40,164 bases of DNA from an uncultured Acetobacteraceae bacterium (lineage in GTDB: Bacteria; Pseudomonadota; Alphaproteobacteria; Acetobacterales; Acetobacteraceae), in the NCBI GenBank assembly GCA_903877125.1, contig CAIRCM010000152.1, forward strand, positions 1 through 40,164. Direction: 5' to 3'. Made by a program: the position numbers and the translations under genes. How positions within the stretch are numbered: position 1 is the stretch's first letter; every line of letters starts with the position of its first letter. The notes beneath the pieces are model-generated. The model was not told the origin of the DNA, did no database searches, and saw only the letters and a list, made by a program, of their open reading frames with translations. This document shows positions 4,322 through 28,789 of the stretch, piece by piece.

Positions 4322-4397
4322 TGGTGCCCAGGGGCGGAATCGAACCACCGACACTGCGATTTTCAGTCGCATGCTCTACCAACTGAGCTACCTGGGC
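4322..4397 (-). tRNA. tRNA-Phe (GAA)
   Basis: A 76-base cloverleaf including the encoded CCA. The acceptor arm is GCCCAGG paired with CCTGGGC. The D-loop contains AGCTCAGTTGGTAGAGC. The anticodon stem GCGAC/GTCGC-type hairpin carries loop CTGAAAA with anticodon GAA, and the T-arm contains GGTTCGATTCC. Its 3' end faces the helicase island, the usual geometry for an element integrated at a tRNA gene. No second copy of the tRNA 3' end was seen in the window, so the other attachment repeat, if any, lies left of base 1. Confidence 0.97.
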
Positions 4398-20761: not shown

Positions 20762-21502
20762 TCAGCGGCCGCGGAAGACCGGCTTGCGCTTGTCCTTGAA
20801 CGCCTGGATGCCTTCCTTGAGGTCTTCGGATTGTTTCACCCGCGCCAGGACCTGCGCGGTTTCGACCATATGCTCGATCGGTCCGACCGGCAGGACATCC
20901 GCGACCAGCCGCTTCAGCGCCCCGATCACCAGCGGCGCGGAATCCAGCAACTGCTCGGCCATCTCCAGCGCCGCTGCTTCATGCTGGCCGTTCGGCACCA
21001 CGCGGTTGACGAATCCCACGTCGTAGGCGCGCTGGGCCGGGATCTTGCTGCCAAGCAGCATGATTTCCATGGCGAGTTTGTGGGGCATGCGGGAGGCGAG
21101 GGTGCTGATGCCGCCGGCGGTCGTGCCGAGCTTGGCCTCGGGGTAGTAGAAGGTGGTGCTTTCGGTGGACACCATGAGGTCGCACATCATGACCATCACG
21201 ATCCCGCCGCCGATGACCCAGCCGGTGGTTGCGGCAATGATGGGCTTGTCGGTCTTGAACCCGACATTGGGGATGGCTCGCCAGAGCTCCGGCAGGTCGG
21301 ACACGTCGGCACCGGAGCAGAACGCCCGATCGCCAACGCCGGAGAGGACGGCGACGCGCTGGTTGTCGTCGGCGTCGAAGGCCTGAAAGGCCTGCTGCAT
21401 TTCCACCGCCACGGCCTGGTTGATGGCGTTCAGCCGCTCCGGCCGGTTGATCCGGATGATGGAGATGGGGCCACGGTGTTCGGTGGTGACAGCCTGGGGC
21501 AT
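20762..21502 (-). CDS. enoyl-CoA hydratase/isomerase family protein (crotonase fold)
   Basis: A 246-residue crotonase-family enzyme acting on an acyl-CoA. The N-terminal strand phrase ISIIRINRPERLNAIN is typical. FCSGADVSDL supplies the first oxyanion-hole segment and WVIGGGIVMVMMCDLMV the second. FYYPEAKLGTTAGG holds the Glu at the position of the first catalytic Glu of enoyl-CoA hydratase. The second catalytic Glu is not obvious, so isomerase or hydrolase activity is also possible. The start at 21502 matches the family start; the frame further upstream is Ser/Pro-rich noise. It lies 55 bases after the DUF2063 gene and 4 bases before the methyltransferase, probably in one transcript. Confidence 0.87.
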   Translation of the reverse strand: MPQAVTTEHRGPISIIRINRPERLNAINQAVAVEMQQAFQAFDADDNQRVAVLSGVGDRAFCSGADVSDLPELWRAIPNVGFKTDKPIIAATTGWVIGGGIVMVMMCDLMVSTESTTFYYPEAKLGTTAGGISTLASRMPHKLAMEIMLLGSKIPAQRAYDVGFVNRVVPNGQHEAAALEMAEQLLDSAPLVIGALKRLVADVLPVGPIEHMVETAQVLARVKQSEDLKEGIQAFKDKRKPVFRGR

Positions 21503-21557
21503 CGCGTCGGGTCCTGTGAAGCTTGGATTCCTGCGGTAACACAGATTGCCGCGGGGT

Positions 21558-22346
21558 TCACCCATGGTGCTCGATGAAGAATCCGGCATCGATCCAGCGT
21601 TGGCGCATGCCGCCGGGGCTGTGCCAGGACCGGCGGACGTCGTTCGGCGGGATGCCGACATCTCGCGCCACCGTTGCGATGGCGTGGTCGGCGTCGTGTC
21701 CGTCGCGTAGGGTGGACAGGAAGAGGTAGTGCGTTTCGGTCAGTGGCATGGTGTGGGTCAGAAACGCTGTGCGGACCATGGCCACATGGCTTGGTGTGGC
21801 CGGCGGTAATGCGGGTGCCGATTTCGCCCGCACCGCGTGGTAGTATTCGGCGACCGGAAAGCGGTAGGCGCCGAGTGCGAAACAGGCTTGCAGGCGTAGT
21901 GCGCTGTCGGGCGTGTCGGCTGTCGCGAAGCGCTGACCTTCCTGGCCAGGCGCATCGAACAGGACAAAAAGCTGCCGCTCGTAGTGGGCGAGGTCGATCA
22001 TGAAGTCGATCCAGACCTCGGGCGCGTCCTTGTCGGGGCGGGTTTGATCGAGGTAACCGGCGAAACGGCGGCCGAGGTCGTAGAGCGTATGGCTTTCCGG
22101 CGGCATGTCCCGGATATATTCGGCAACGAAATCGTCGAACAGCGATGGGCCCAATGCGTGACACAAGGCGGGAAACTGTTCGCGCATGCAACTGACGATG
22201 CGCTGGAAATAGCTGCGCTGATAGATCGCGAGACCGGCGCTGGCGCTCAGGCGCGCGGTGGCGGCCAGGAAGCGGCCGGACTCCGCGTCCGCGAGAAAGC
22301 GGAGCGCATCCTGCATCCACATTTGGATGTCCCGTAGTCCCGTCAT
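21558..22346 (-). CDS. DUF2063 partner protein of the DUF692 enzyme (BufC/MbnC-like role)
   Basis: A 262-residue protein. The N-terminal half matches DUF2063: [19 protein letters not shown], then [18 protein letters not shown] and the [18 protein letters not shown] segment. In bufferin and methanobactin clusters such proteins pair with the DUF692 enzyme and are needed for peptide modification or recognition. Its ATG overlaps the DUF692 stop (ATGA), the usual coupled order. The second half has the phrase [19 protein letters not shown] and a late HTH-like [13 protein letters not shown]. The partner role is inferred from family and position. Confidence 0.85.
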
Positions 22347-23257
22347 GCGTTCGCCAGAACGGTGCTGTCCATGACCTGGGGCACCATGAAATCGACGGGG
22401 TTGGAGACGCCGCTGTCCGGCGCGGGGTCCGGACGGTCGGCGACGATCGCCTGGTTGGCTTTCCGCACCTCGGCGTGACATTCGGCGAAGGGCGGAATAT
22501 TGCCGTCCCATTCCAACAGTGTCGATACGTCCCCGGTTCGGGCGCGGGCGATTCGGTAGAGTTCCCAGACATCGGCGCGTACCGGCCGATCGTGGGTGTC
22601 GACGATATGGGTGCCGCAATGCTGGTGCCCGGCGATGTGCATCTGCACCACCCGCTCGCACGGGAAAGCATCGAGATACGCGAGCGGATCGGTGCCCATA
22701 TTGAAACAGGTGACGTAGACGTTGTTCACATCCAGCAACAGCAGGCAGCCGGTTTCGTCGGACAGGCGACGGAGAAAATCGGGTTCGGCGATGGTCGAGT
22801 GGGCAAAGTGCACATAGGCGCTTGGGTTTTCCAGGATCAGCGGCCGCTCCAGGATGTCCTGCACCTGCCGCACCCGCCGGGTCACGTGGGCGAGGGATTC
22901 CTCGGTCAGCGGCAGTGGCAGCAGATCGTGGGAGTTCAGGCCCAGGACTCCGGTCCAGCAAAGGTGGTCGCTGATCCCCGCCGGTTTGATCTCATCGGCC
23001 AACCGTTTCAACTGACGCAGATAAGGCAAATTCAGCGGGTCGGTGCTGCCGATCGACATCGACACGCCATGCAGCATGATGGGGTAACGTTCCGCGACGC
23101 GGTTCAGGACGTGGCGGGGATAGCCGCCGGAGTCCATGAAATTTTCCGAAATCGCTTCGAACCAGTCGACCGCCGGCCATTCGGACAGGATGTGCCCGAA
23201 ATGGACATTGCGCAGCCCAAGGCCGAGGCCCAGGGGCTTCGGCCTGGTCAGGCGCAA
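22343..23257 (-). CDS. DUF692 multinuclear non-heme iron oxidase (MNIO; BufB/MbnB-like)
   Basis: A 304-residue TIM-barrel enzyme of the family that modifies cysteines in RiPP precursors with two or three iron ions. Family landmarks in order are [30 protein letters not shown] (His63), SDHLCWTG (His98), LENPSAYV (Glu143), [10 protein letters not shown] (Asp176), MHIAGHQH (His207, His211), VDTHDRPV (Asp220, His222) and LLEWD (Glu249). All expected metal-ligand positions are occupied. There is no ATG in the right place: the first codon that precedes the conserved GLGLR is a TTG at 23257, 10 bases inside the end of the Cys-rich gene. The frame further upstream is an Arg-rich shadow. Coupling to both neighbours suggests a single complex. 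Confidence 0.9.
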
Positions 23258-23898
23258 CCGCCGGCGCCGCTCATGCCGCTGGCCCCGCAGGCGGTCATGT
23301 TGTCGCGTTTGGTGTTGTCGGCGGAGATCCACAGATAGGTGGGGCCGCTGGGGGCGAAAACCTCGGGCACCGGCCCCAGTTTTTCCGGCAGTTTCTGCGT
23401 GGCGGGCACCTGCCCCTGGGCCTGCTTGTGCAGCAGTTCGGCGCGCAGTTCCGGCCAGACCTCGGTCGCGAAGACGTCCCGAGCTCGGAGCCAGACGCTC
23501 TTTCCCTGGTTGGGGCCGTTGGTGCTGAAGCGTTCGGCGTTGATCGGCGTGGCGCAGGAGCCGAGGGAGCGGCAATCGTTTTTGGCCGGCTGGTTCATTT
23601 CCTCGCCGGTGCCGTAAAGACCGCAGCCGCCCTGGTTGCGGCAGTCGTTTTTGACGTGGCAGGTATGGTCCGCGGTGGTCGCGCAGTAGCCCTGGCCGGC
23701 GCATTCGTTGGGCTTGCCGGTCGTCGGGGGCCCGGCTGTGCCGAACCGGTCAGCCCCGGCGCAGGCATTCAGCCCCATGCAGGCGTGCAGCGGCAGGCCC
23801 TCGGGCTGTGGGCCGATCGTCGTCGGGAAGGCCGGTTGGTCCTTGTACGGGTTGTGTTCGGGAACGGGTTGGCCGTTGGTCCGTTGGGGGTCAGACAT
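23248..23898 (-). CDS. Cys-rich protein, candidate RiPP precursor or metal-binding substrate of the DUF692 enzyme
   Basis: I do not recognise a named family. The 216-residue protein has 11 cysteines, at 40, 46, 66, 72, 80, 86, 92, 109, 115, 204 and 215. Nine of them fall into CX5C units, for example [18 protein letters not shown] and NDCRSLGSC. This recalls the NDC/GGC patterns of DUF2282 bufferin precursors. Those are about half this size, have a signal peptide and four core Cys. Here the N-terminus is hydrophilic and Pro-rich, so the protein is probably cytoplasmic. Residues 125-195 form a Cys-free spacer with [26 protein letters not shown] ribosome binding site lies 4 bases before the ATG. 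It follows the ferritin-like gene by 33 bases. Confidence 0.8.
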
Positions 23899-23931
23899 GT
23901 TGCCTCCTGCCTCGCATGGGTCGCCGAACGA

Positions 23932-25473
23932 TCACGGCCAGTATGGCGCGACGTTCGGCAGGTGCATCGGGTATCCGTTCGATTGGTATGTCAGGGCGTA
24001 GCTCACGTAGTAACTCGCGCCCGACGCCCCGGATTTCGAGGCGGCCGTGTAGTTCGGGTTGTTCTGGATCGCGGCAGCCGCGGCCATGGCTTTCTCACCA
24101 AGCTCGGTCAGCGCCGCGAACGAGTCCTTTTGGTTGCGAAGGGAGATGTTTTCGAACACCGGCGCCATCGGCTTGCCTTTGTAGGGGCCCGTGGGAACCT
24201 CGATGTCGCGGAGCTTCTGGATATATTTATCGAGTACCCATATCATCGAACGATGCAGCGCTTCGTTGAAAAACCGTTTCTGGCCGGATGGCGGGACGAG
24301 GAAGATCGTTTCCGTCATCACCAGCATGTATTGGAACAGGCCGGAGCAGAAATCGGCGAGCGGGCGGAGTTCGTCGGGATAATCCCGAGCAACGGGATTG
24401 TCGGGGAAATCGAACAGCACCTGGGCTTTCAGAAGTTCGGCATCCGACACCCCCGGCCGGATCGCGACGGGCGGCTTGGGATCGTCGGGGAGGGTTTCCT
24501 CTTCCGATCCATAGCGGTCGAATTCGGCCTGGACTCTCAGAAATTTGTAGTAATGCGACCATTCCCGCTTCGACGGGTCGTCTGACGGCGTTTCGTCGCC
24601 TTGTTCCCTGGCATAGCCTTCGCCCTGGTCGCAGATCGTGTCGATCGCGATCAGGGCGTCGCGCTTGGATGACACGGTGACAAGCTGGGCGGGCCCGGCG
24701 TGGCTGTCCGCCTGGTCGGTGAACACCGCGGCGGCGGAGGCGCTGGGGTGGCGGTCGTGTGTTGTTCCCGGAGGCAAATGACCGGGCGGCGCGACCTTCC
24801 AGGGGTCGAATTTTTCCTTCGGATAGACCGTATCGACGTTGTTGGGGGAGTAGTTGTAGGGCTGAATCTGGCTGGCTGCGGCGCCATGGCGGAAATCCGC
24901 GTCGGTGACGAAGGATGTGCTGATCTGGCAGCGGATATACGAATAGAACTGCCCGATCGTATCCCAGTTTTTGTCGGCGGGGAAAGTCAGGCGGGATTCC
25001 GGATATTCGATTTGCAGGAAGTGCCATAACTGCTCGAACGACAGGCGGGCCAGCGGGATTTCGACCGCGGTGACGCCACCGGGACCGGGTGGCCCCTTCG
25101 GGTCGTGATACGGCAGCCCGGTCGGGTACGCGGCGGGTGCTTTTCCGTAAAGTTGCGGGGCAACACCCATCGCGAACAGGATGTTGGCGGAGAGCGACAT
25201 ATGCAGCATCTCCTCCACCGCGACGCTCATGATGAAGCCGCCGGCCTTGTTGGCGAACAACTGCGGCGGTTCGATATTTTCTCCGGTCTGCTTGTTACGC
25301 AGCAGCGAATAATAGGTGAACAGGTAGATGGGGATCGTCGCGAGTTCGATCTCGATCGCGGTTTGCAGATTCTGCTTCAGTTCGCGCAGCACTTCCGACG
25401 GACTTTGGGTCCGTTCGATGTGCGCGACCATGTCCCGTTCATGTGGGGTCAGCGGCGTGATCGGATCGGGCAT
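23932..25473 (-). CDS. ferritin-like protein of the VioB/RebD-type family
   Basis: A 513-residue cytoplasmic protein whose N-terminal part matches the ferritin-like domain of VioB/RebD iminophenyl-pyruvate dimer synthases. Candidate diiron ligands are Glu41 or Glu43 in TAIEIELATIPIYLF, Glu88 and His91 in VEEMLHMSLSANI, Glu285 in CDQGEGYA, and His307 in EWSHYYKFL. A second helical pair, with Glu388 in MTETIFLV and Glu404/His407 in NEALHRSMIWVL, could hold another metal. The region at about 200-260 is low-complexity linker. No indole or violacein genes are present, so dimer synthase activity is unlikely. The neighbours suggest oxidation or iron handling linked to the Cys-rich protein. The start with AAGGAC upstream is chosen over an ATG 11 codons earlier. 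Confidence 0.85.
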   Translation of the reverse strand: MPDPITPLTPHERDMVAHIERTQSPSEVLRELKQNLQTAIEIELATIPIYLFTYYSLLRNKQTGENIEPPQLFANKAGGFIMSVAVEEMLHMSLSANILFAMGVAPQLYGKAPAAYPTGLPYHDPKGPPGPGGVTAVEIPLARLSFEQLWHFLQIEYPESRLTFPADKNWDTIGQFYSYIRCQISTSFVTDADFRHGAAASQIQPYNYSPNNVDTVYPKEKFDPWKVAPPGHLPPGTTHDRHPSASAAAVFTDQADSHAGPAQLVTVSSKRDALIAIDTICDQGEGYAREQGDETPSDDPSKREWSHYYKFLRVQAEFDRYGSEEETLPDDPKPPVAIRPGVSDAELLKAQVLFDFPDNPVARDYPDELRPLADFCSGLFQYMLVMTETIFLVPPSGQKRFFNEALHRSMIWVLDKYIQKLRDIEVPTGPYKGKPMAPVFENISLRNQKDSFAALTELGEKAMAAAAAIQNNPNYTAASKSGASGASYYVSYALTYQSNGYPMHLPNVAPYWP

Positions 25474-25531
25474 TGTCGGTGTCCTTCTTAATCCGATACT
25501 ACGCAAGCACGGTCCCGGGTGGCTGACAAGC

Positions 25532-25930
25532 CTACAGATCGGCCTCGTACGCCGCCCAGGCGGTCGGCGCTTCCCGTAACAAAACCTTCAAACCCTTCAC
25601 CGCCCGCCCGCCGTCGCCCAACCGACCGTCGCGGCAGGCCGCCGCCAGCAGCTCAAAGATGTGGAACGCCATATATTCCGTGGTGGTGTTGATGCCTTTC
25701 AGCAGTGGATTGTCGTCGAGATTGCTGTAGTCGACGGTGTCCAGCAACTGGCGCAGTACCGTCTTCGCCAGACCGATATCGACCAGCAATTGGTGCGGGT
25801 CCAGTTTGGATGCGCGGAATTCCGCCTCGACCGCGTAGGTCGCGCCGTGCAGGCGCTGGGCCGGCCCGAATTCCTCGCCCTGAAAGCTGTGGGCAATCAT
25901 GACATGGTCGCAGCCTGTCAGGCTGAACAT
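25532..25930 (-). CDS. 6-pyruvoyl-/6-carboxy-tetrahydropterin synthase homologue with altered active site
   Basis: A 132-residue T-fold protein of the PTPS/QueD superfamily. Retained features are His14 in MIAHSF, His28 in RLHGATY, the LLVDIG strand at the VDF position, NTTTEY at the PT-E-N position, and Glu119 in LREAPTAWAAY, which would anchor the pterin ring. Changed features are clear. The zinc motif HGH is HGA (Ala30), no Cys precedes it where QueD has its catalytic Cys, and the LDH triad segment is VDYSNLDD with Tyr68 for His. The usual reaction on dihydroneopterin triphosphate is therefore doubtful. It overlaps the dehydrogenase gene by 13 bases and is third in a three-gene unit. Confidence 0.8.
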   Translation of the reverse strand: MFSLTGCDHVMIAHSFQGEEFGPAQRLHGATYAVEAEFRASKLDPHQLLVDIGLAKTVLRQLLDTVDYSNLDDNPLLKGINTTTEYMAFHIFELLAAACRDGRLGDGGRAVKGLKVLLREAPTAWAAYEADL

Positions 25931-26871
25931 GCGGTTTCCCCGTATTCGATCGTGTGGCAGAGGCCGCCTGGTGCCAAAATCCCAGGCATCGCGCGCGGCA
26001 GATCGGCGAACGGCGTCGGCCCCTCCAGCAACCCGTCATAGGCCGGATCGGCCAACAGATCGAGCGCAAGGGCCAGTCGTTGCGCGTAGCTCCGCCGGCC
26101 GCGCATCGGATTGGCCACCGCCCCCACCTGGGAGGCGATCAACCGCAGGCGCCGCGCATGAAACGCCTCCCCCAGCGGAACGGCCGGCGCGCGATCGCCA
26201 TACCAACTCGCCTCGACGATCCGCCCCTCGAACGCCGCGCGGTCCAATGCCAAACGCAGCCCGGCCTCGGATGCCGAGGTGTGAACGATCAAATCCTGGT
26301 CCCCCGGTGCGTCGCCGGGCATAGAGAAGCGTTCCACCAGCGCGGCCCGCGCCGGCAGCGTATCGACAACCGTGACGGTCGTGCCGGGGATCCGGCGCAG
26401 CAACGACGCCGTGAGCAGGCCGACGACCCCGGCGCCGATCACCATGATCCGCTCGCCGACCAAGGGCGCCGAATCCCAAACGATATTGACCGCCGTTTCC
26501 ATTTTTGCAGCCAAAACCGCTCGGCGATCCGGCACGGCATTGGGGACGGGGATGCACATCGATGCTGGGGCGTTAAAAATATCCTGATGCGGGTGCAGCA
26601 CGAAAACCCGGTCGCCTTCCGGCAGCCGCCCGACGGCGCAATAACCGTATTTGACCGGAAACGGAAAATCCCCGCACATCAGCGGTGCCCGCATCGCGGC
26701 GAACTGACTGGGCGGCACCCGGCCGGCGAACACCAGTGCCTCGGTCCCGCGCGAAACCCCGGACGCGATCGCCCGAACCCGGACCTCGCCCTCGGCCGGA
26801 TCGGCCAGGATTTCGGTCCGTATCTCGCCCGCCCCGGGCGCTGTGGCCCAGAAGGCACGCGCCAGCGTCAT
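25918..26871 (-). CDS. zinc-type medium-chain dehydrogenase homologue
   Basis: A 317-residue protein of the medium-chain dehydrogenase/reductase superfamily. The N-terminal GroES-like part includes EGEVRVRAIASGVSRGTEAL and GYCAVGRLPEGDRVFVLHPHQD. The nucleotide-binding half starts with IMVIGAGVVGLLTASLL (about residues 141-157), the Rossmann loop for NAD(P). Structural-zinc cysteines are absent and the catalytic-zinc Cys/His set is incomplete, so it may be a non-zinc or reductase-type member. It overlaps the RibD-like reductase by 4 bases upstream and the PTPS homologue by 13 bases downstream. The three enzymes probably act on one small molecule. The substrate is unknown. Confidence 0.82.
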   Translation of the reverse strand: MTLARAFWATAPGAGEIRTEILADPAEGEVRVRAIASGVSRGTEALVFAGRVPPSQFAAMRAPLMCGDFPFPVKYGYCAVGRLPEGDRVFVLHPHQDIFNAPASMCIPVPNAVPDRRAVLAAKMETAVNIVWDSAPLVGERIMVIGAGVVGLLTASLLRRIPGTTVTVVDTLPARAALVERFSMPGDAPGDQDLIVHTSASEAGLRLALDRAAFEGRIVEASWYGDRAPAVPLGEAFHARRLRLIASQVGAVANPMRGRRSYAQRLALALDLLADPAYDGLLEGPTPFADLPRAMPGILAPGGLCHTIEYGETACSA

Positions 26872-27563
26872 ACCCGGCGCACCAGGGGAATATCGACGAG
26901 CAGGTCGTCGCCAAGGCGGTGCGTCGTCCAGACAAACCGCTTCGCGTCGGCGAGCCGCACGGCGGGAATGCCGCCCCCCATCAGCAACGGCGCCACGGTG
27001 ACATGCAGCCGGTCCAGCGCATCCGCGCGCAGAAAATTGCCGACCGCGATGCCCCCGCCTTCGATCAGGATGCGGCGCAGGCCGCGCGCGGCGAGCGTGG
27101 CCAGTATCGCCCCGATGTCCATGCCGAAGGGGCCGCGGGGCACCGTCACGACCTCGGCCGTGCCATGCACGGCCCCGCCTCCGCCGCCGGAAGCACAGAG
27201 CAGCAGCGTTTCCGGTCCGCTTTCAAAGACCTGATAATGCGGCCCAAGCCGGCGTTCGGTATCCAGGACCACGCGCACAGGGCTCGGTCCCGGCACCAAC
27301 CGCGTGGTCAGGCGGGGGTTGTCCGATCGCACCGTCGCCGACCCCACCACCACCGCATCGCAGAGCGAGCGCAGCCGATGCGTGTGCGCCAGATCCTCGG
27401 GGCCGCCGATCCAACAGGATTCGCCGTCCTTCGTCGCGATATAACCATCCAGGGATTGCGCGGCGCGCGCGATGATGAAGCAGCCGTCCGCAGCTGCCGG
27501 CATCGCCAACAATGGGTCATAAAGCGGCGCGAACCGCGTGGTTTCGGGTGGCCCCTGATCCAT
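26868..27563 (-). CDS. RibD C-terminal/dihydrofolate reductase-like NADPH reductase
   Basis: A 231-residue stand-alone homologue of the reductase half of RibD. It begins the domain with CFIIARAAQSLDGYIATKDG, then TVRSDNPRLTTRL, the strand RRILIEGGGIAVGNFL (about 158-173), and VTVAPLLMGGG near the end. There is no deaminase half. The nearby ribD supplies both functions of the riboflavin pathway, so this copy likely reduces a different pteridine- or pyrimidine-like ribosyl substrate. It is the first gene of the minus-strand trio and is divergent from ribD across a 119-base gap. It overlaps the dehydrogenase start by 4 bases. Confidence 0.85.
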   Translation of the reverse strand: MDQGPPETTRFAPLYDPLLAMPAAADGCFIIARAAQSLDGYIATKDGESCWIGGPEDLAHTHRLRSLCDAVVVGSATVRSDNPRLTTRLVPGPSPVRVVLDTERRLGPHYQVFESGPETLLLCASGGGGGAVHGTAEVVTVPRGPFGMDIGAILATLAARGLRRILIEGGGIAVGNFLRADALDRLHVTVAPLLMGGGIPAVRLADAKRFVWTTHRLGDDLLVDIPLVRRV

Positions 27564-27682: not shown

Positions 27683-28789
27683 ATGGCTTCGAAACCGGAC
27701 GATCTTCCCCATATGCGTGCCGCGCTGGCCCTCGCGCGGCGGGGGCTTGGCGCGACCTGGCCCAATCCGTCCGTGGGTTGCGTCGTCGTGCAAGGCGGGC
27801 GTGTTGTCGGCCGTGGGGTGACAGCGGTGGGCGGCCGGCCGCATGCCGAACCGCAGGCCCTCGCCATGGCCGGGGACCGAGCGAAGGGCGCGACGGCCTA
27901 TGTGACGCTGGAGCCCTGCTGCCACTGGGGCAAAACCCCGCCCTGCACCGACGCTTTGATCGCCGCCGGCGTGGCCCGCGTGGTGGTCGCGACGATCGAT
28001 CCGGACCGGCGGGTCGATTCGCAGGGCGTGGCCCTGCTGCGCGCGGCCGGAATCGCGGTCGATGTCGGCCTGCTCGAAGACGATGCCCACGAAATACTCG
28101 CCGGCTATTTCCGAAAGATGCGAACCGGCGCCCCGCTGGTGACCTTAAAGCTCGCCACCACATTGGATGGCCGCATCGCCACCCATGCCGGGGAAAGCCA
28201 GTGGATCACCGGTGAGGCCGCTCGGCGTATGGGCCACGCGATCCGGGGCCGGCACGACGCGGTCATGGTCGGTGTCGGCACCGTGCTGGCGGATAATCCT
28301 GAACTCACCTGCCGCATTCCCGGTTTCGCGAAACGCCAGCCGGTGCGGGTCGTGGCGGACAGCCATTTGCGCACCCCGCTGACCACGCGGCTGGTGGCCA
28401 CGGCGCGCGAGACGCCCACCTGGGTCCTGACCCGCCATGACAGCGATCGGGCCAGGCGAAAAGCTTTCGAGGAAGCCGGCGTCACGCTGGTCGACGTCCG
28501 CGCCGGGTCCGCCGGGCTCGATATGACAGACGCCATGCAGGCGCTGGGCAAGGCCGGCATCACGCGGCTGATGACCGAGGGTGGCGGACAAATCGCGGCA
28601 GCCCTGCTTCGCGCCGATCTTGTCGACCGGCTGGCATGGTTTCATGCTCCTGCCACAATGGGCGGTGACGGCTGGCCGGGCGTCCAGGCGTTCGGCCTTG
28701 AAAAACTGGCTGACCTACCCCGATTTACACGCACACGGGTCACCCCGCTGGGCGACGACCTGCTGACCGAATTCACAAGGCACCGATAA
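27683..28789 (+). CDS. ribD: bifunctional riboflavin deaminase-reductase RibD
   Basis: Performs two steps of riboflavin synthesis: deamination of the pyrimidine from GTP cyclohydrolase II, then NADPH reduction of the ribosyl chain. Residues 1-145 are the zinc deaminase, with HAEPQAL (His54, Glu56) and EPCCHWGKTPPC (Cys79, Cys88). Residues 146-368 are the reductase, with LKLATTLDGRIATHAGESQW and the late LMTEGGGQIAAALL. The 368-residue length is standard. It starts the plus-strand operon ribD-ribE-ribBX-ribH-nusB, one base before ribE. Confidence 0.97.
   Translation: MASKPDDLPHMRAALALARRGLGATWPNPSVGCVVVQGGRVVGRGVTAVGGRPHAEPQALAMAGDRAKGATAYVTLEPCCHWGKTPPCTDALIAAGVARVVVATIDPDRRVDSQGVALLRAAGIAVDVGLLEDDAHEILAGYFRKMRTGAPLVTLKLATTLDGRIATHAGESQWITGEAARRMGHAIRGRHDAVMVGVGTVLADNPELTCRIPGFAKRQPVRVVADSHLRTPLTTRLVATARETPTWVLTRHDSDRARRKAFEEAGVTLVDVRAGSAGLDMTDAMQALGKAGITRLMTEGGGQIAAALLRADLVDRLAWFHAPATMGGDGWPGVQAFGLEKLADLPRFTRTRVTPLGDDLLTEFTRHR

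Follow-up and report, generated by a model that had tools for sequence, protein, structure and literature searches.

A rare four-gene cassette combining a bufferin-related MNIO system with a ferritin-like protein

Described relatives and the four-gene locus

Bufferins are peptides that carry thiooxazoles and bind copper (PMC12452194, PMC12636315), and in the parts of PMC12452194 considered here their bufABC genes follow the order precursor, MNIO, DUF2063. For bufferins and 5-thiooxazoles, each modified Cys is reported to bring a loss of mass, and a band near 305 nm is reported as well (PMC12452194, PMC12668002). According to the same parts of PMC12452194, partners of PME-type 1 accompany signal-bearing precursors and not signal-less ones, and a group named adjamnio-I (its Table 2) comprises signal-less precursors of 122–293 aa with 8–21 Cys, whose gene precedes that of the MNIO and whose partners are of PME-type 2; the word 'ferritin' does not occur in its main text. 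Published fusions, such as Buf1–Cytochrom_C–FGE and MerC–Buf2, join a bufferin domain to a metal-related domain. Here we consider a locus in which an MNIO and a DUF2063 protein are encoded together with a Cys-rich protein and a ferritin-like protein, on a contig of an uncultured Acetobacteraceae bacterium (GCA_903877125.1, CAIRCM010000152.1; the whole stretch of 40,164 nucleotides is hereafter called the window). The four open reading frames (ORFs) lie on the minus strand between 25473 and 21558 and are, in the order of transcription, as follows.

23932..25473, minus strand: ferritin-like protein (PF12902), 513 aa, a helical bundle with candidate diiron residues and further helices
23248..23898, minus strand: Cys-rich protein of 216 aa with 11 Cys and without an evident signal peptide, putative substrate of the MNIO (from Cys conservation and N-terminal hydropathy)
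22343..23257, minus strand: MNIO (DUF692, PF05114), whose likely start, a TTG, overlaps the end of the Cys-rich gene; recognized by Pfam, by MNIO_BufB and by its catalytic-base Asp
21558..22346, minus strand: DUF2063 partner protein, 262 aa, PME-type 1 by its Pfam signature

An earlier note, made from the letters of the window, had proposed this cluster and the coupling of its genes by overlaps, and both are borne out. In a Pfam scan, the ferritin-like ORF scored 132.9 bits against PF12902 (cut-off 22.3), the MNIO ORF 349.2 bits against PF05114 (cut-off 25) and the DUF2063 ORF 61.5 bits against PF09836 (cut-off 27.2), while no Pfam family was assigned to the Cys-rich ORF. The ferritin-like and Cys-rich genes are separated by a gap of 33 nt; the likely TTG start of the MNIO gene, at 23257, overlaps the Cys-rich gene by 10 nt, and the MNIO and DUF2063 genes share 4 nt (ATGA). 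The genome to which the window belongs holds one MNIO gene and one PF12902 gene, the two stretches matched by the latter being the same ORF.

Genome contigs were scanned once, with a two-row alignment of the Cys-rich protein as query and two peptide patterns. This yielded 21 further genomic loci, a lower bound, in carriers belonging to Pseudomonadota, Acidobacteriota, Actinomycetota and Cyanobacteriota (L003, which by its length is the same contig as L016, is left out of all counts). Sphingomonas echinoides is among the carriers, and Methyloglobulus morosus has a fused form. The ferritin-like, Cys-rich and MNIO genes follow one another in the same order in 21/21 loci, if a fragment in L009 and two pieces in L020 are counted as the ferritin-like gene. 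The DUF2063 gene comes after the MNIO gene in 20 of them; in the last, L019, the contig ends 20 bases past the MNIO gene. The neighbourhood is thus conserved in relatives, so that one of the two refuting conditions set in the earlier note does not apply, and its adjacency is not a matter of chance. Moreover, the ferritin-like and Cys-rich parts form a single ORF in 11/21 loci (L007, L011-L014, L016, L018, L019, L021, L022 and L024), which is strong evidence of a direct link between the modification system and a redox-type protein. Mapped on the weakly resolved MNIO tree, fused and separate forms are related by at least six state changes, and a fusion that changes state in this way points to a stable pairing of the two modules. 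In L012 and L014, no ATG, GTG or TTG start was seen for the N-terminal portion of the ferritin-like domain, although the frame is open upstream.

The cassette is rare. When 398 genomes of the phylum were searched separately with the Cys-rich protein (E<=1e-3) and the ferritin-like protein (E<=1e-20), the same two genomes were matched, namely the window's own and G134; since one of them is the window's own, this amounts to one independent case of co-occurrence. A profile search of 240 genomes of the class added only a partial ferritin-like match in G528. The locus in question, L063 (G528:C281:3728-4165), encodes a partial, distant ferritin-like relative (E 3.2e-11).

The Cys-rich protein, its MNIO and the ferritin-like partner

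Three regions can be marked in the Cys-rich protein.

23551..23787, minus strand: residues 38-116, the bufferin-2-like part, containing CX5C units and, after C46, an insert; supported by profile comparison with Buf2 cores
23290-23550: conserved non-Buf2 stretch, residues 117-203, with an 11-residue conserved block and, further on, VWxRARxVF, and with a predicted helix at residues 135-160
23251..23292, minus strand: conserved C-terminal motif with a 14-residue consensus, from 22 rows, L015 departing at its end

Nine of its 11 Cys are present in 22/22 homologues and the other two in 21/22, mostly arranged as CX5C units. The C-terminus is conserved as well, over 13 residues of the consensus, and much of the 216-residue protein, beyond any short core, is conserved across phyla. 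Comparison by hhalign with seven Buf2 cores gave a score of 46.5 over 14 columns, whereas none of 80 column shuffles, of which half left the Cys columns in place, exceeded 14.4; residues 57-130 scored 31.9 over 29 columns, as against a maximum of 22.0 in 50 shuffles. The BufA2 model (NF050166) matched 19/22 members of the family at E<=1, the best at 5.5e-7. By profile comparison, then, the protein holds a diverged bufferin-2 (BufA2) domain, with a Cys pattern of Buf2 type. A Sec signal peptide is not evident from N-terminal hydropathy in any of the 11 separate Cys-rich proteins, the window's included, for which the maximum was 1.09 as compared with 1.70 in one Buf2 control. Together with the lack of a recurrent flanking family (see below), the absence of a strongly hydrophobic N-terminus makes a cytosolic, unprocessed product likely. 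This agrees with the suggestion in the earlier note of a soluble, cytosolic Cys-rich product encoded beside the MNIO and DUF2063 pair.

The enzyme, too, points to the bufferins. The window's MNIO scored 349.1 bits against MNIO_BufB (NCBIfam NF050167), above the cut-off of 310, and all 22 MNIOs matched this model at E<=1e-5, the cut-off having been compared for the window's enzyme. Over these 22, the best E was 9.8e-108 for MNIO_BufB and 7.3e-75 for the next model, the ranking having been followed member by member for the window's enzyme. In a midpoint-rooted tree with long branches flagged, the MNIOs of the cassette make up a single clade (100/99). This clade is nested in a 29-row group (100/99), the other members of which are MNIOs encoded beside Buf2 genes scoring over the cut-off (6 rows, 4 distinct) and the MNIO of L034, which lies beside a Buf2 gene below the cut-off. 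On these sequence relationships, the cassette MNIO belongs with the bufferin (Buf2) maturases. The catalytic base of the related enzyme FonB is D249 (PMC12668002, in the part considered here); the equivalent Asp is present in 21/22 MNIOs and replaced by Ala in L020. As for the partner, PF09836 matched 21/21 DUF2063 homologues scanned at E<=0.01, a set that lacks L019, whose contig carries no partner gene, and in which L020 is represented by its first piece only.

The cassette resembles the Bufferin-2 system (BufA2/BufB2/BufC2) in its precursor–MNIO–DUF2063 order, in its related Cys module and in an MNIO that falls in one group with those of Buf2. It differs in that the Cys-rich protein has no evident Sec signal peptide, carries an insert and extra conserved regions and contains 0–3 Cys-Lys steps, and in that a ferritin-like partner or fusion occurs in every cassette locus found. 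The earlier note had presented the locus as a candidate new ribosomally synthesized and post-translationally modified peptide (RiPP) system. No paper describing a pathway of this composition was found in the literature searched, nor any that links ferritin or a ferritin-like protein with an MNIO or DUF692; the locus is not unrelated to what is known, in view of the diverged bufferin-2 domain and of an MNIO that groups with bufferin maturases. The cassette thus appears to belong to the bufferin kind, as a new variant. Among the systems of PMC12452194, as far as the parts of that work considered here go, adjamnio-I is the closest published description: there, as in the cassette, the Cys-rich protein is signal-less, falls in the same size and Cys range and is encoded ahead of the MNIO. 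The partners of adjamnio-I are of PME-type 2, whereas DUF2063 (PME-type 1) was found in 21/21 partners scanned; the cassette and adjamnio-I may still be the same family. The cassette is an exception to the correlation between PME-type 1 partners and signal-bearing precursors. The published fusions mentioned above join a bufferin domain to a metal-related domain, as the cassette does, although the MerC fusions are predicted to lie in the membrane, with a periplasmic bufferin domain, whereas here a ferritin-like part is the fusion partner, in a protein of soluble appearance.

The ferritin-like partner itself matched PF12902 at E<=0.001 in 20/20 members scanned (a set without L009 and L020), and shares family and fold, a ferritin-like bundle, with other PF12902 proteins such as CC_0557 (3hl1) and VioB. 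PF12902 includes VioB, an enzyme of secondary metabolism, and the earlier note had called the protein 'VioB-type'. This holds for the broad Pfam family and not for the enzyme, as the VioB equivalog TIGR04492 gave 16.5 bits where its cut-off is 1250, and identity with VioB is rejected. Distant PF12902 relatives differ from the cassette in their surroundings: 11 plasmid records were matched and five neighbourhoods opened, and the four that are annotated name no MNIO in a gene table that is incomplete. The candidate ligands, placed from a 20-row alignment of the ferritin-like proteins with helices taken from a structure model of L007, are these.

25345..25347, minus strand: candidate diiron ligand E43, in the first long helix (33-64); E in 18/18 covering rows, gap in 2/20
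25201..25212, minus strand: candidate diiron motif E88-x2-H91, in the second long helix (77-109); 20/20 rows
24619..24621, minus strand: candidate diiron ligand E285, at the last residue of helix 284-299 as numbered in the model; 20/20 rows
24553..24564, minus strand: candidate diiron motif E304-x2-H307; 20/20 rows; the His starts helix 316-325 of the model and the Glu lies just before it

The plausible diiron ligands of the earlier note are therefore conserved in every covering row, and a ligand set of E, ExxH, E and ExxH within a ferritin-like bundle is plausible from the alignment, the model making the E304-x2-H307 pair less sure than the others.

Insertion and flanking genes

The cassette seems to have been inserted as a block, with the following approximate extent.

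21494..25531, strand not assigned: inserted cassette between the PTPS and enoyl-CoA hydratase genes, from PTPS being directly followed by the hydratase in 8/11 same-genus loci

When loci of the same genus were retrieved with the upstream PTPS as query, the enoyl-CoA hydratase gene directly followed PTPS in 8/11, leaving no room for the cassette; in the other three (L055, L058 and L059) the hydratase gene was not seen after PTPS. The DNA upstream of PTPS is kept beside it in 9/11. Since the flanking genes adjoin in these loci, the cassette corresponds to an insert of roughly 4 kb, about 25531-21494. In 23 other genomes of the genus, the search for the Cys-rich protein gave only a weak match of 51 residues, in G006. 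Gain by horizontal transfer fits best, because carriers span four phyla; the direction of transfer is an inference, loss in the relatives being the alternative.

In the window, PTPS belongs to a compact run at 25532-27563 (minus strand), along with a dehydrogenase-like gene and the gene of a stand-alone RibD_C protein; an ORF at 27683-28789 (plus strand) resembles a full ribD, by inspection of the ORF list, and a tRNA-Phe gene lies at 4322-4397 (minus strand). Across the 22 cassette neighbourhoods compared, no further gene family stands beside the cassette in more than three, and no peptidase or exporter family recurs. The Pfam scan of the flanks covered 66 of 146 listed flanking ORFs and found 92 families; among the 25 of these that were listed, no metal, export or protease family was present in more than one ORF. 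Related genes do occur upstream of the cassette in 3/21 loci (L005:5268-6149, minus; L018:5329-6387, plus; L021:5165-6520, plus). They are relatives of the THAP4-like heme barrel, those of L005 and L021 falling below the Pfam cut-off and that of L018 having no Pfam match, and the one in L005 lies on the strand opposite to the cassette; they possibly encode an accessory heme or nitric-oxide protein.

Possible roles of the cassette

The reading we favour, though at roughly even chances, is that of a self-contained, horizontally moving cassette of four genes which makes a cytosolic two-module metalloprotein with Cys-derived soft-metal ligands beside a diiron site. One module would be the ferritin-like diiron part and the other a Cys-rich part descended from a bufferin-2 domain, the two being encoded either side by side or in a single fused polypeptide. 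The DUF2063 partner may present the Cys-rich part to the MNIO, which would oxidise a subset of the invariant Cys. The likeliest products are thiooxazoles, as known from bufferins, and the oxidised Cys could then act as ligands of a soft metal, probably copper, close to the diiron centre. Once matured, the pair might deal with stress from metals or oxidants within the cell, the diiron centre oxidising or reducing what the modified tail binds, or else protecting the cell from Fe/Cu redox chemistry. Thiooxazole ligands, and copper as the metal, are proposed because of the kinship with bufferins only. As to the product, the earlier note had also considered an oxidised thiol compound; the fusion of the Cys-rich and ferritin-like parts in 11/21 loci, and the absence of any flanking family in more than 3/22 neighbourhoods, make a matured protein likelier than an excised small compound. 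One may also guess, from the structure model, that the helix at residues 135-160, or the non-Buf2 stretch, serves as a recognition element in place of a signal peptide. A bolder form of the proposal, possible but rather doubtful, is that the MNIO builds a prosthetic group within a cytosolic protein as large as an enzyme, in which heterocycles formed from Cys of that same protein would hold copper or another soft metal beside the diiron centre, and that the cassette travels between phyla.

Several observations weigh against the favoured reading. The window's Cys-rich protein scored 12.5 bits against BufA2 (NF050166; E 0.13), below the curated cut-off of 60, and its structure model is poor (mean pLDDT, a per-residue confidence score, of 54.7) apart from the helix at 135-160, so that no metal site can be read from it. 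It contains no Cys-Lys step, other members having 0 to 3, and the modification may therefore differ from the bufferin type. The selectivity site beside the catalytic base is Gly in 20/22 MNIOs, whereas the four distinct Buf2 enzymes compared have Asp or Ala there; together with the scarcity of Cys-Lys steps, this suggests that the enzyme and its putative Cys-rich substrate may have diverged together. With regard to the compartment, the N-terminus of the ferritin-like protein in L016 reaches a hydropathy of 1.94, above the 1.70 of the Buf2 control, in an ORF whose start is extended upstream, and those of L014 and L023, whose starts are uncertain, come near the control. E304 is not part of a helix in the model, and E388 and H407 are equally invariant, so that the diiron assignment is provisional. 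The ferritin-like gene is incomplete or interrupted in 2/21 loci. L009:6300-10257 (an Ascidiaceihabitans metagenome-assembled genome) retains only a C-terminal piece of it beside the Cys-rich gene, the MNIO gene and a 203-aa DUF2063 ORF, which may reflect a draft error or decay; in L020:6017-10330 (Pseudophaeobacter leonis) both the ferritin-like and DUF2063 genes are interrupted and Ala occupies the catalytic-base position of the MNIO, so that this copy looks degenerate, by draft errors or by decay. Finally, a copper or iron family is absent among the 25 of 92 flanking families listed.

The main rival, which we think unlikely but the nearest competitor, is that the ferritin-like protein acts as an additional tailoring oxidase, often in cis, on the MNIO-modified Cys-rich part, the product being a doubly oxidised peptide or protein. 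An arrangement of this sort has an analogy in the borosins, in which methyltransferases are fused to their own core peptide. The fusion of enzyme-like and substrate-like parts in 11/21 loci would suit it, as would the conserved candidate diiron residues and, in a general way, the place of VioB within PF12902, although the match to the VioB model is just 16.5 bits. On the other hand, no recurrent peptidase or exporter family stands beside the cassette to release such a product, and conservation across phyla extends over much of the 216-residue protein and not over a short core. Less probable again is that the Cys-rich domain, modified or not, serves as redox or electron-transfer partner, or as sensor, of a ferritin-like enzyme acting on a small molecule, with no copper involved. 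That distant PF12902 relatives occur in other settings, as in the annotated plasmid neighbourhoods, would accord with this, as would the THAP4-like relatives upstream in 3/21 loci, but the Cys module and the MNIO are both akin to those of copper-binding bufferins. A chance neighbourhood of the four genes, or a loose linkage at most, is very improbable and is rejected, the rarity of the cassette (2/398 phylum genomes, the window's own included) being outweighed by an order kept across four phyla, by the frequent fusion and by the presence or absence of the whole block within the genus.

The interpretation given in the earlier note is thus partly supported overall. What the cassette offers is a bufferin-type modification system tied to a specific redox-type protein and, with three or four genes, a compact, expressible system for asking whether entire proteins are matured by MNIO enzymes. 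Should the matured module bind cytosolic copper beside a diiron centre, it would represent a novel route to a protein cofactor; and if the product is a self-cofactored Fe–Cu redox protein, MNIO chemistry would extend from exported metallophore peptides to the biogenesis of protein cofactors.

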